A stretch of DNA of 64,000 bases from Halostella pelagica (GTDB lineage Archaea > Halobacteriota > Halobacteria > Halobacteriales > Natronoarchaeaceae), in contig CP040678.1 in assembly GCA_005954745.1 (NCBI GenBank), forward strand, positions 124,001-188,000, read 5' to 3'. The notes under the pieces are model-generated. The model was not told the DNA's origin. It was given only the letters and a program-made list of their open reading frames with translations, and did not search any database. This document shows positions 24,942 to 28,570 of this stretch, one piece after another. The position numbers and the translations under genes are program-made. The first letter of the stretch is position 1, and each line of letters opens with the position of its first letter.

Positions 24942-25081
24942 CGCCGGCGGTTCGCCGCGGGAGCGATTAAAACGTCCGGTCCCGGCGACGAACGGAGCGG
25001 GTTCCAGCTAAGCGCCGCGCAGTTAGGGGGTCACGAAACGGGTCGCCCGCTTCCGCGTCGGTACCGAACTGCCCTCGCAAC

Positions 25082-25089
25082 GTTTTTAC
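25082..25089 (+). promoter_or_regulatory. Probable TATA box of the pheST leader transcript
   Basis: GTTTTTAC at 25082-25089 is the only T-rich box in an otherwise GC-rich stretch and is centred about 27 bases before the ATG at 25113. That spacing predicts transcription starting at or next to that ATG, so the small ORF would be read from a leaderless mRNA. Confidence 0.5.
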
Positions 25090-25112
25090 TCCGCGTGCGA
25101 CTATCCCTCACT

Positions 25113-25193
25113 ATGGCATCCGAACCCCACTGCCGGCGTTTCGCCCGCCAGTCGCAGGACGCTCCGGGGTTCGGCTTTTTCCTTTCCGGGTGA
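25113..25193 (+). CDS. Phe-rich 26-aa leader peptide upstream of pheST
   Basis: ATG to TGA gives 26 residues, beginning MASEPHCRRFARQSQ and ending DAPGFGFFLSG. Four residues are Phe, three of them (TTC, TTT, TTC) packed in the last seven codons (GFGFFLSG). The ORF starts where a leaderless transcript from the box at 25082-25089 would begin, and ends 117 bases before pheS, on the same strand. A GC hairpin follows within 18 bases. This is the layout of a bacterial-style Phe-sensing attenuation leader (such as E. coli pheST), but no terminator T-run is seen. No similar protein is known to me. Function is inference; the ORF itself and its Phe cluster are directly visible. Confidence 0.6.
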   Translation: MASEPHCRRFARQSQDAPGFGFFLSG

Positions 25194-25210
25194 TCACGGG
25201 CTGTGGACTG

Positions 25211-25242
25211 CGCGGCGACGCGCCGGGAACCCGGCCGCCGCG
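25211..25242 (+). promoter_or_regulatory. GC-rich hairpin between leader peptide and pheS
   Basis: Outer stem CGCGGCG (25211-25217) with CGCCGCG (25236-25242); inner stem GCCGGG (25222-25227) with CCCGGC (25230-25235), separated by a four-base bulge on the left strand. It starts 18 bases after the leader-peptide stop, within reach of a ribosome stalled on the Phe codons. No T-run follows, so a classical terminator is unlikely; sequestering or stability control is possible. Confidence 0.5.
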
Positions 25243-25310
25243 GACGAAACCGCCCACGTCGAACCGGAATCGGTAACTGACGACCCCAGAGTACGTGTAC
25301 CAACGAGCGA

Positions 25311-26819
25311 ATGAAGCTACCAGCATCACAGGTCGCGGTGTTAGAGACCGCGAGCGCGAACGAGGCACAGACAGTCGAGCAACTGGCCGAGGCGACCGAC
25401 CTCCCACCCGAGACGGTCACGGGTGCCGTCTTCGAACTGGCAGACGCAGAGCTCGTCTCCGTCGAGGAGGCCACCGAGGAGAGCGTCTCGCTGACCGACG
25501 AGGGCGCGACGTACGTCGACGGAGGCCTGCCCGAGATCCGCCTGTACGAGGCGGCCCTCGACGCCGGCGCGGACGAAGCGGCGGTAGAGATGGGTCGCGT
25601 CATCGGACAGTCCGGTCTGGAGGGCGCGGCGGTCGACATCGCGCTCTCGAACTACGCCCGCAAGGGGTACGGAAGCATAGAGAACGGTGAAATAACGGCC
25701 GACCCCGACGCGGACCCCGACAGCGACCCCGAGGCCGCGGCGCTGTCCGCGCTGTCCGCGGACGAATCAGTCGACGAGGACGGCGTTCTCGACCAGTTGG
25801 AACGCCGCGACCTCGTCGACCGGAGCGAGTCGACCGTTCGCTCGGTAACGTTGACCGGTGACGGCGTCACTGCGATGATGGAAGGCGTCGAGACGGCCGA
25901 GACGGTCGACCGGATAACGCCGGAACTGCTCACGTCCGGCGAGTGGGAAGACGTCGAGTTCGCCGAGTACAACGTCGAAGCCGACGCCGCCGAGATAAAC
26001 GGCGGGAAAGAGCATATCCTTCGACAGACCGCGAACCGCGTGAAAGACACGCTCGTCGGCATGGGGTTCGAGGAGATGGAAGGGCCGCACGCCGACGCCG
26101 AGTTCTGGATCAACGACTGTCTGTTCATGCCCCAGGACCATCCGGCGCGGACCCACTGGGACCAGTTCGCGCTGGAGAACCCGTCCGAGATCGCGGAACT
26201 CCCCGAGGACCTGGTCGAGCGCGTCCGCGACGCGCACCTAAACGGCGTCGGCGAGGACGGCGAGGGCTACCACTCGCCGTGGACCGAGGAGGTCGCGAAG
26301 GGGATCGACCTGCGCGGCCACACAACGTCGCTGTCAATGCGCTATCTCTCGGGGTACGCGCAGGGCGACCTGGAGCCCCCCGAGCGCTTCTTCAGCGTCG
26401 AGAAGGTGTACCGCAACGACACCCTCGACCCGACGCACCTGCTGGAGTTCTTCCAGATCGAGGGCTGGGTGATGGCCGACGACCTCTCCGTTCGCGACCT
26501 GATGGGGACGTTCACGGAGTTCTACGAGCAGTTCGGCATCACCGACCTGGAGTTCAAGCCGCACTACAACCCCTACACGGAACCGTCGTTCGAACTGTTC
26601 GGTACCCACCCCACGACGGGCGAACTCGTCGAGGTCGGCAACAGCGGGATGTTCCGCGAGGAAGTGCTCCGGCCGCTGGGCGTCGACTGCGACGTGATGG
26701 CCTGGGGGCTCTCGCTGGAGCGCCTGCTCATGCTGATGTACGGCTTCGAGGACATTCGGGACGTCCACGGGACGCTCGCTGACCTCGAACTGCTGCGGAA
26801 CACCGAGGTGATTCACTGA
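25311..26819 (+). CDS. pheS: Phenylalanyl-tRNA synthetase alpha subunit
   Basis: Catalytic subunit of the heterotetrameric PheRS. 502 residues, archaeal/eukaryote-type length. N-terminal winged-helix repeats (about 1-90 and 145-215) that bind tRNA or DNA-like structures, then the class II catalytic core: motif 2 region RFFSVEKVYRNDTLDPTHLLEF, FQIEGWVMADDLSVRDL, FKPHYNPYTEPSFELF, GNSGMFREEVLRPLG and motif 3 AWGLSLERLLMLMYG. Translation is coupled to pheT through a one-base TGATG overlap. The 5' region carries the Phe-rich leader ORF. Confidence 0.97.
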   Translation: MKLPASQVAVLETASANEAQTVEQLAEATDLPPETVTGAVFELADAELVSVEEATEESVSLTDEGATYVDGGLPEIRLYEAALDAGADEAAVEMGRVIGQSGLEGAAVDIALSNYARKGYGSIENGEITADPDADPDSDPEAAALSALSADESVDEDGVLDQLERRDLVDRSESTVRSVTLTGDGVTAMMEGVETAETVDRITPELLTSGEWEDVEFAEYNVEADAAEINGGKEHILRQTANRVKDTLVGMGFEEMEGPHADAEFWINDCLFMPQDHPARTHWDQFALENPSEIAELPEDLVERVRDAHLNGVGEDGEGYHSPWTEEVAKGIDLRGHTTSLSMRYLSGYAQGDLEPPERFFSVEKVYRNDTLDPTHLLEFFQIEGWVMADDLSVRDLMGTFTEFYEQFGITDLEFKPHYNPYTEPSFELFGTHPTTGELVEVGNSGMFREEVLRPLGVDCDVMAWGLSLERLLMLMYGFEDIRDVHGTLADLELLRNTEVIH

Positions 26820-28570
26820 TGCCAGTCGTCGACGTCGACCCCGAAGAACTGCGCGAGTTGACCGGCCACGACGAGAAAGACGACGAGGAACTGAAGACGG
26901 ACCTGTTCGGTCTCGGTTTAGAGTTCGAGGGCCGCACGGAAGAAGGCGAGTTCCAGTTAGAGTTCGCGCCGGACCGCCTGGACCGCCTCTCCGTCGAGGG
27001 GATCGCCCGCTCGCTGCGCTACCAGTACGGTGACGACCGCGGCGTGTACGTGCCGAACACGAACGACGCCGAGTGGACCATCGAGGTCGACGAGGACGTT
27101 CCGGACGAGCGGCCGTACGTCACCGGGGCCGTGATACGGGGCGTAGACCTGGACGAGGAGGCCCTCGAATCGCTGATCCAGTTGCAGGAGAAACTCCACG
27201 CGACGATGGGCCGCAAGCGCGCGAAAGGTGCCATCGGTATCCACGATCTGGCGATGCTCAAAGGCGCACCCGCACGGAAAGGCGAGGGCAACTCGATCCG
27301 TTACACCGGGATCGAACCCGACGGCGACCGGTTCGTCCCGCTCGACAGCAACAGCGAGATGACGCCAGCGGACGTGCTCACCGACCACCCGACAGGCGAG
27401 ACGTACGCCGACCTCGTCGGCGAGTACGAGCGTTACCCCGCTATCTACGACGACATCGGCCTGTTCTCGTTCCCGCCCGTTATCAACGGCAAGCGGACCG
27501 AGGTGTCGACGGACTCCCGCGAACTGCTCGTCGAGATGACCGGTACCGACCAGTGGACCGTCGACCGGATGCTCTCTATCGTCTGCTACGCGCTCGACGC
27601 CCGCGGAGCGACCGTCGAGACGGTCACCGTCGAGTATCCCGACCGGGAACTCGTCCGTCCCGACCTCTCTACGCGGGAGAAATCCGTCTCCCACGACCGC
27701 ATCGAGGGCCTCATCGGCGTCGACTTCGACCCCGAGGAGGTCGTCGACCTGTTCGAGCGGTCCGGACTCGACGCGGAGACGGCGGAGGGCGGCGTCGGGT
27801 CGCAGTCGTCGGATCGCCGGTCGGAGCCCGCCGACAGCCCCGTCTATGAGGTCGATGTCCCGTCTTATCGCGTTGACGTGCTCCACCCGCTCGACCTCGT
27901 GGACGACGTTGGACGCGCGTACGGCTTCAACGACCTCGAACCGAGCTATCCTGACGTTAGCACCGTCGGCGGTCGCCACGACCGCTCGCAACTCGAAGAC
28001 GCCGTCCGGGACCTGCTGGTCGGTCTCGGCTTCGAGGACCTGCTGAACTTCCACATGATCAGCGAAACGGAGAACTTCGAGCGGATGCGGATCGGCCCGG
28101 ACGACGACGCAGTGGGGGCGGCCGACCCGGCGACCATCCGCGAACCGTACAGCGAGGACTACACGATGCTTCGCACGTGGGCGCTCCCCTCGCTGCTGAT
28201 GGTGCTGGAGAACAACACACACCGGTCGTACCCGCAGGACCTGGCTGAGATCGGTCTCGCCGCGCACGTGGACGACTCCGAGAACACGGGCGTCGCCGAG
28301 CGACGCACCGTCGCCGGCGTTCTCGCGCGACACGACGCGTCCTACGAGGACGCCAAGGCACGTCTGCAGGCGGTCGCGCGGAACTTCGACGTCGACCTCG
28401 AAACGCCGCCGACCGACCACCCGACGTTCGTCGACGGTCGCACGGCCGCCGTGGTGATCGACGGCGAGTCGGTAGGCGTCATCGGCGAGGTCCACCCGTC
28501 GGTGCTCGTCGAACACGATCTGGAACTGCCCGTGGCCGGGTTCGAGTTCCGGATGGACGCGTTAGAATAG
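26819..28570 (+). CDS. pheT: Phenylalanyl-tRNA synthetase beta subunit
   Basis: 583 residues, the shorter archaeal-type beta subunit. N-terminal region with LEFEGRTEEGEFQLEFAPDRLDRLSVEGIARSLRYQ, B3/4 editing domain (IGIHDLAMLKGAP, FPPVINGKRTEVSTDSRELLVEMTGTD), B5 domain with VDFDPEEVVDLFERSGLDAE and a catalytic-like fold (PSYRVDVLHPLDLVDDVGRAYGFNDLEPSYP). Its ATG overlaps the pheS stop. Convergent with pyrD, 31 bases away. The insert after ETAEGGVGSQ (Ser/Asp-rich, about residues 322-338) looks like a disordered haloarchaeal loop. Confidence 0.97.
   Translation: MPVVDVDPEELRELTGHDEKDDEELKTDLFGLGLEFEGRTEEGEFQLEFAPDRLDRLSVEGIARSLRYQYGDDRGVYVPNTNDAEWTIEVDEDVPDERPYVTGAVIRGVDLDEEALESLIQLQEKLHATMGRKRAKGAIGIHDLAMLKGAPARKGEGNSIRYTGIEPDGDRFVPLDSNSEMTPADVLTDHPTGETYADLVGEYERYPAIYDDIGLFSFPPVINGKRTEVSTDSRELLVEMTGTDQWTVDRMLSIVCYALDARGATVETVTVEYPDRELVRPDLSTREKSVSHDRIEGLIGVDFDPEEVVDLFERSGLDAETAEGGVGSQSSDRRSEPADSPVYEVDVPSYRVDVLHPLDLVDDVGRAYGFNDLEPSYPDVSTVGGRHDRSQLEDAVRDLLVGLGFEDLLNFHMISETENFERMRIGPDDDAVGAADPATIREPYSEDYTMLRTWALPSLLMVLENNTHRSYPQDLAEIGLAAHVDDSENTGVAERRTVAGVLARHDASYEDAKARLQAVARNFDVDLETPPTDHPTFVDGRTAAVVIDGESVGVIGEVHPSVLVEHDLELPVAGFEFRMDALE

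Follow-up and report, generated by a model that had tools for sequence, protein, structure and literature searches.

The region before pheST in this haloarchaeal chromosome raises the question of whether an archaeal leader can sense charged tRNA-Phe through the position of the ribosome that translates it. In bacteria, regulation through ribosomes that stall on leader codons is textbook knowledge; bacterial pheST and pheA use leader-peptide attenuation, and the E. coli pheM leader lies upstream of pheST. To our knowledge, there is no established archaeal case. We found no archaeal precedent in the open-access literature searched (subscription journals were outside the search), and two haloarchaeal transcriptome and ribosome-profiling papers (PMC12482152 and PMC8303175) contain no mention of pheS in their text. 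We consider it likely that the pheST 5' leader senses charged tRNA-Phe via the translating-ribosome position. The stalling, the response to Phe, the toggle between structures, its direction and its output are all inferred, without expression or ribosome data.

The window, which is the whole stretch of 64,000 nucleotides that was analysed, is part of a haloarchaeal chromosome (C1:124001-188000 of genome G000). The original prediction had described a promoter box, a short Phe-rich ORF (uORF), and a GC hairpin without a following T-run at a given distance from pheS, and every one of these features was found in the sequence (Table 1). The Phe codons of the uORF start at 25140, 25170, 25176, and 25179, and three of them fall in the last seven codons. 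The hairpin lies 18 nt and the pheS start (25311) 117 nt downstream of the uORF stop, and a U-run is indeed absent after the hairpin. The hairpin was correct but incomplete: it forms the inner portion (P2) of a covarying element that is larger and spans about 25198-25255. A stem inside the ORF (P0) was missed, and a probable second promoter near pheS was beyond what the original prediction could see. The identity of the upstream neighbour, trpS, was confirmed with NCBIfam.

Table 1. Features of the pheST locus, in window positions (position 1 is the first nucleotide of the window)
Feature	Positions	Strand	Support
Distal promoter: BRE CGCAAC (25076-25081) and TATA box GTTTTTA (25082-25088)	25076-25088	+	Cross-genome alignment on the uORF ATG
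Box CGCAACGTTTTTAC	25076-25089	+	Seen in the sequence
Leader-peptide ORF (uORF) MASEPHCRRFARQSQDAPGFGFFLSG, 26 codons, stop TGA at 25191-25193; leaderless (inferred)	25113-25193	+	Conserved in 105/132 genomes
Phe codon cluster TTC-GGC-TTT-TTC (FGFF), candidate sensor codons	25170-25181	+	Codon counts, 85 genomes
P0 stem 5' arm CCGAACCCC, uORF codons 3-6	25120-25128	+	Covariation with 3' arm
P0 stem 3' arm GGGGTTCGG, including the first clustered Phe codon	25166-25174	+	Covariation
P1 stem 5' arm GGGCTG, one mismatch in this genome; begins 5 nt past the stop codon	25198-25203	+	Model R1 match
Internal loop strand TGGAC, conserved	25204-25208	+	G and A of GGA near-invariant, 46 genomes
P2 hairpin (the originally predicted hairpin)	25209-25244	+	6/6 P2 pairs with changes on both sides
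Internal loop strand CGAAA, conserved, and P1 3' arm CCGCCC	25245-25255	+	GAAAC invariant across 46 genomes
Proximal promoter-like element ACCGGAATCGGTAACTG, probably a second pheS promoter	25263-25279	+	Cross-genome presence
pheS, phenylalanine-tRNA ligase alpha subunit	25311-26819	+	NCBIfam NF003210, 583 bits
pheT, phenylalanine-tRNA ligase beta subunit	26819-28570	+	NCBIfam TIGR00471, 436 bits

We collected the pheS upstream regions of 114 genomes of the order and then of 18 more from outlying families (132 in total). The original prediction had named conservation of the ORF and its Phe codons in other haloarchaea as a check, and this check was passed strongly: the uORF precedes pheS in 105 of the 132 genomes and in 50 of 62 genera. 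It is absent from the other 27 and is therefore dispensable. The encoded peptide has the form M-x-[SP]-E-[PS], a middle that differs in sequence and in length between genomes, and GFGFF(F) with the stop 2-3 codons on. We screened loosely for ATG ORFs 15-45 codons long with at least three Phe among the last nine. Of 114 haloarchaeal regions upstream of pheS, 90 contained such an ORF, versus 2 of 2280 dinucleotide shuffles (0.09%); the same screen gave 0/114 on the reverse strand and 0/114 on regions further upstream. The Phe-ending ORF before pheS is thus real and far from chance. The peptide has no credible match in Pfam, and its one NCBIfam match (E 0.12, 12.3 bits) is far under the cut-off of 50 for that family.

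An excess of synonymous substitutions had been proposed as a further check. Positions 1 and 2 of the Phe codons are near-invariant, and the third positions of the later ones switch between C and T. Clustered Phe codons number four in 58 of 85 genomes and three in 26. The rare codon TTT makes up 39% at the second and 35% at the third leader Phe codon, compared with 3.4% of Phe codons in pheS genes, which is an approximately tenfold enrichment. The leader therefore meets the criterion for leader-peptide attenuation of a short translatable ORF with clustered codons cognate to the downstream gene. Support for translation of the uORF is only indirect, coming from the codon-position pattern and frame conservation in the absence of ribosome profiling. 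When the Phe-codon and RNA-element patterns were combined and searched in 84,980 species genomes, all 56 listed haloarchaeal matches lay directly before pheS (Haloferax, Natrinema, Natronorubrum, Natronococcus, Haladaptatus, Halorussus, Haloarcula, Halorubrum, and other genera), and 23 of the 24 listed non-haloarchaeal matches were inside long frames.

Two records deserve separate mention. In L004 (G004 contig 29, genome 89% complete), the uORF is frameshifted by one base with the RNA stems kept, possibly an assembly error. A contig labelled Pacearchaeota (L179, record PWGL01000012.1) carries a haloarchaeal pheS with the leader and is probably a binning error.

The promoter of the uORF is sharply defined. 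In an ungapped alignment of 94 genomes on the uORF ATG, a BRE (CGCAAC, -37 to -32) and a TATA element (GYTTTT, -31 to -26) stand at fixed positions, with C at 91% at -37, A at 93% and 89% at -34 and -33, and T at 91-99% from -29 to -26. From this fixed spacing we infer a start site on the ATG or immediately beside it, and hence a distal transcript that should be leaderless, although no start-site data support this directly. The proposal that a leaderless transcript carries a leader ORF rich in Phe is thus supported, with the ORF and the TATA-ATG spacing seen and the leaderless start inferred.

A second promoter-like motif, TCGGAACCGCTAACTG, is strongly conserved 40-60 nt before pheS in most genomes. 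It is present in 114 of 127 genomes (20 of 22 uORF-less and 94 of 105 uORF-bearing), and about eight uORF-bearing genomes are without it. Judged by sequence alone, this proximal element is likely a second promoter, with either promoter able to serve pheS, so much of the pheS mRNA may be without the leader. Its presence in most genomes, including uORF-less ones, speaks for a rival explanation in which the uORF and its distal promoter are a transcription unit of their own that interferes with or activates the proximal promoter and makes no pheS mRNA. However, six genomes (L310, L313, L312, L120, L316, and L114) keep the uORF with no detected proximal element, and in these the distal promoter probably makes the pheS mRNA. 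In genus g14 (L310 and L313), the uORF ends 35-37 nt before pheS and the proximal element is absent, so the uORF promoter should drive pheS. We regard the separate-unit explanation as very improbable. The g14 leader consists of promoter, uORF, and P0 only, a minimal natural form.

Two RNA structures, P0 and P1/P2, are supported by covariation. The 5' strand of P0 is formed by uORF codons 3-6 (CCGAAYCC) and its 3' strand by GGRUUCGG, the sequence around the first Phe codon of the cluster. The most variable pair has the counts C-G 38, U-A 27, U-G 17, and C-A 1, and the closing pair is found as C-G, G-C, and A-U. Pro/Ser swaps at codon 5 are compensated (TCC or CCC tracks GGA or GGG), and in some genomes (L023, L066, L053, and L078) changes at codon 3 compensate the rare variants GFD and GFA. 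When P0 partners were permuted within families, none of 5000 permutations reached the observed pairing. GAA makes up about 93% in the conserved start of the uORF, and silent sites there follow the RNA pairing.

These observations bear on the possibility that the uORF makes a functional microprotein that stands before pheS by chance, with the peptide and not the ribosome position under selection. The start, the N-terminal M-x-S-E-P/S, and the C-terminal GFGFF are kept over families, as this explanation would have it. However, the N-terminal conservation, silent sites included, is explained by P0 pairing, and the middle of the peptide varies. Moreover, three different synthetase genes have different peptides, each with the cognate codon (see below). 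A microprotein is therefore a very unlikely explanation.

P1/P2 follows the uORF stop and has the core GGYGGAC...CGAAACC. In 46 sequences, 10 of its 12 pairs show double changes, with a covariation score of 0.558 versus 0.186 in shuffles; 88% of cells are paired versus 66% in shuffles and 34-50% in slid controls. The internal loop, YGGAC with CGAAA, is near-invariant; a K-turn reading of it was ruled out, as the loop is symmetric. A model of the element (R1) matches this genome at 25193-25261 (34.0 bits, E 1.8e-5) and scores in most uORF-bearing genomes, and uORF-less genomes have no match or weak ones (L093 and L094). Over 40 genomes, R1 was convincing at pheS only; the 21 matches inspected were mostly secondary ones inside coding frames. 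Taken as a whole, the leader has an ordinary folding energy (z = 0.04), so both structures rest on covariation and not on stability. A search of the leader (25080-25330) against Rfam found no family match at E <= 1.

The structured RNA could itself be the regulator, for example a PheRS or ribosomal-protein site for autoregulation, with translation of the ORF incidental. The near-invariant purine-rich loop, often a trait of protein sites, and the restriction of P1/P2 to pheS favour this explanation. It does not account for the conservation of the frame, of the place of the stop, and of three or four Phe codons, for the free choice between TTC and TTT, or for the enrichment of the rare codon. 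In addition, three genomes (L310, L313, and L316) keep the uORF and P0 with P1/P2 apparently absent, indicating that P1/P2 is not always needed. We consider it unlikely that the RNA acts alone; the element could still be the output arm of a switch.

The reading that we prefer, sensing by ribosome position, is consistent with the strict spacing of the leader. The P0 3' arm ends 17 nt before the stop codon in 60 of 85 genomes, and P1 starts 5 nt after it (median). If the archaeal ribosome is assumed to occupy about 28-34 nt, one that sits on any Phe codon hides the P0 3' arm and leaves P1 mostly uncovered, and one at the stop codon does the reverse. In simulations by constrained folding with the ribosome on the Phe codons, P0 formed in 0 of 82 leaders and P1 in 29-39, and with the ribosome at the stop codon P0 formed in 44 and P1 in 1. 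The assumed footprint in part dictates this folding outcome, whereas the spacing is an observation. Without constraints, only half of the minimum-energy folds contain P1. We also considered whether the Phe segment GGGUUCGGC could pair with the P1 3' arm GACGAAACC, in the manner of the bacterial 2:3 antiterminator. The segments are complementary at 7 of 9 positions without covariation, and the Gly codon GGU that would perfect the pairing is avoided; this pairing remains speculation.

We propose that the mRNA would begin with the uORF ATG or immediately beside it and, being leaderless, would be translated at once. When Phe-tRNA is ample, the ribosome would reach the stop codon, P0 would re-form behind it, and the P1 5' arm would be masked. 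When Phe-tRNA is scarce, the ribosome would halt on the Phe codons, often the rare TTT, leaving P0 open and P1/P2 free to fold. The stalled state is presumed to raise PheRS synthesis, a direction that is inferred, and the second promoter would supply basal pheS expression. These steps remain inferences, as the original prediction had said of stalling, Phe dependence, and regulatory output.

The output is the least certain part. There is no U-tract after P1/P2, and inspection did not show the pheS start to be hidden (the region before its ATG is C/A-rich), so neither bacterial-type termination nor start hiding is supported. Read-through or mRNA fate of the distal transcript may be the output; we favour this over start hiding with low confidence. 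Another possibility is that P0 and the U-rich Phe codons form an intrinsic terminator inside the uORF, the Phe codons being kept as a U-tract. The TTT enrichment would fit, and L316, for example, has a hairpin followed by six U. However, in most genomes the Phe codons run TTC TTC and form no continuous U-tract, and such a terminator would act before the ribosome reaches the Phe codons and could not sense Phe. The rare codons enriched in the valS and thrS leaders described below are not U-rich either. An intrinsic terminator here is highly improbable. For the ribosome-position model, our claim, which rests on sequence alone, is that the leader works like ribosome-mediated attenuation, not that it is a bacterial-type attenuator.

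The same design is found at two other synthetase genes, which is our argument for a shared sensing logic. In this genome, both valS and thrS have leaderless-type uORFs. The valS uORF (C1 about 2131863-2131937, minus strand) lies 127-202 nt before valS. The valS leader was found in 19 of 27 genomes (L249-L256, L258, L260, L262-L265, L267, L268, L275, L276, and L278) and has one or two invariant GTA codons; GTA makes up 2% of Val codons in pheS genes. It occurs in two forms, one with the hairpin GTAGGGGC..TAGCCCC (VGAx-stop) and the other with GTAGTACG (VVR-stop), which go with different ValRS types, some about 45% identical. The thrS uORF (C1 about 2727139-2727183, minus strand) lies 63-108 nt before thrS. 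Its leader was found in 16 of 29 genomes (L279-L290, L292, L293, L299, and L308), encodes M[AV]G[VG]xFT..., and has the rare Thr codon ACA as an invariant. The start of the thrS uORF pairs with a segment after the stop, downstream of which several genomes have a pyrimidine-rich tract. A simple filter on other synthetase and aromatic genes of this genome (ileS, leuS, metS, serS, tyrS, trpS, chorismate-binding enzymes, and others) found no leaders. The covarying stems and the analogous valS and thrS leaders add weight to the originally predicted sensing. In a bolder reading, to which we lean only slightly, haloarchaea have independently evolved a general way of sensing amino acids, with synthetase genes controlled, without bacterial-type terminators, by covarying stems and by leaderless micro-ORFs that contain rare cognate codons (Phe TTT/TTC, Val GTA, Thr ACA).

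Among the closest known systems, bacterial pheST and pheA attenuation shares with the leader a short Phe-rich ORF directly before pheST, Phe codons within an RNA stem arm, and a sensing mode that is inferred from where the ribosome stands with respect to alternative structures. Unlike its bacterial counterparts, the archaeal leader has a BRE/TATA promoter and an inferred leaderless mRNA, its Phe codons pair with the start of their own ORF, and a conserved purine loop element lies past the stop, with no hairpin-plus-U terminator there. No sequence relation between the two was detected with Rfam. T-box riboswitches of bacterial synthetase genes share the theme of control by tRNA charging, but the haloarchaeal leader has a translatable ORF and no detected tRNA-binding architecture; the T-box family model (specifier loop and T-box sequence) was not matched in Rfam at 25080-25330 (E <= 1). 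TnaC- and Erm-type nascent-peptide stalling also involves a leader peptide and a ribosome near the stop codon, whereas haloarchaeal conservation lies in clustered cognate codons and RNA pairing and not in the peptide body. E. coli thrS is autoregulated by binding of the synthetase to its own mRNA. It likewise has a structured 5' region before a synthetase gene, but the haloarchaeal leader has a cognate-codon uORF and there is no evidence for PheRS binding.

If our reading is correct, the same logic as in bacteria would have evolved in archaea, whose RNA polymerase resembles that of eukaryotes and which use leaderless mRNAs. The leader would be directly testable in Haloferax, with many species carrying it, and the wider question of how archaea sense tRNA charging at synthetase genes would thereby become testable.
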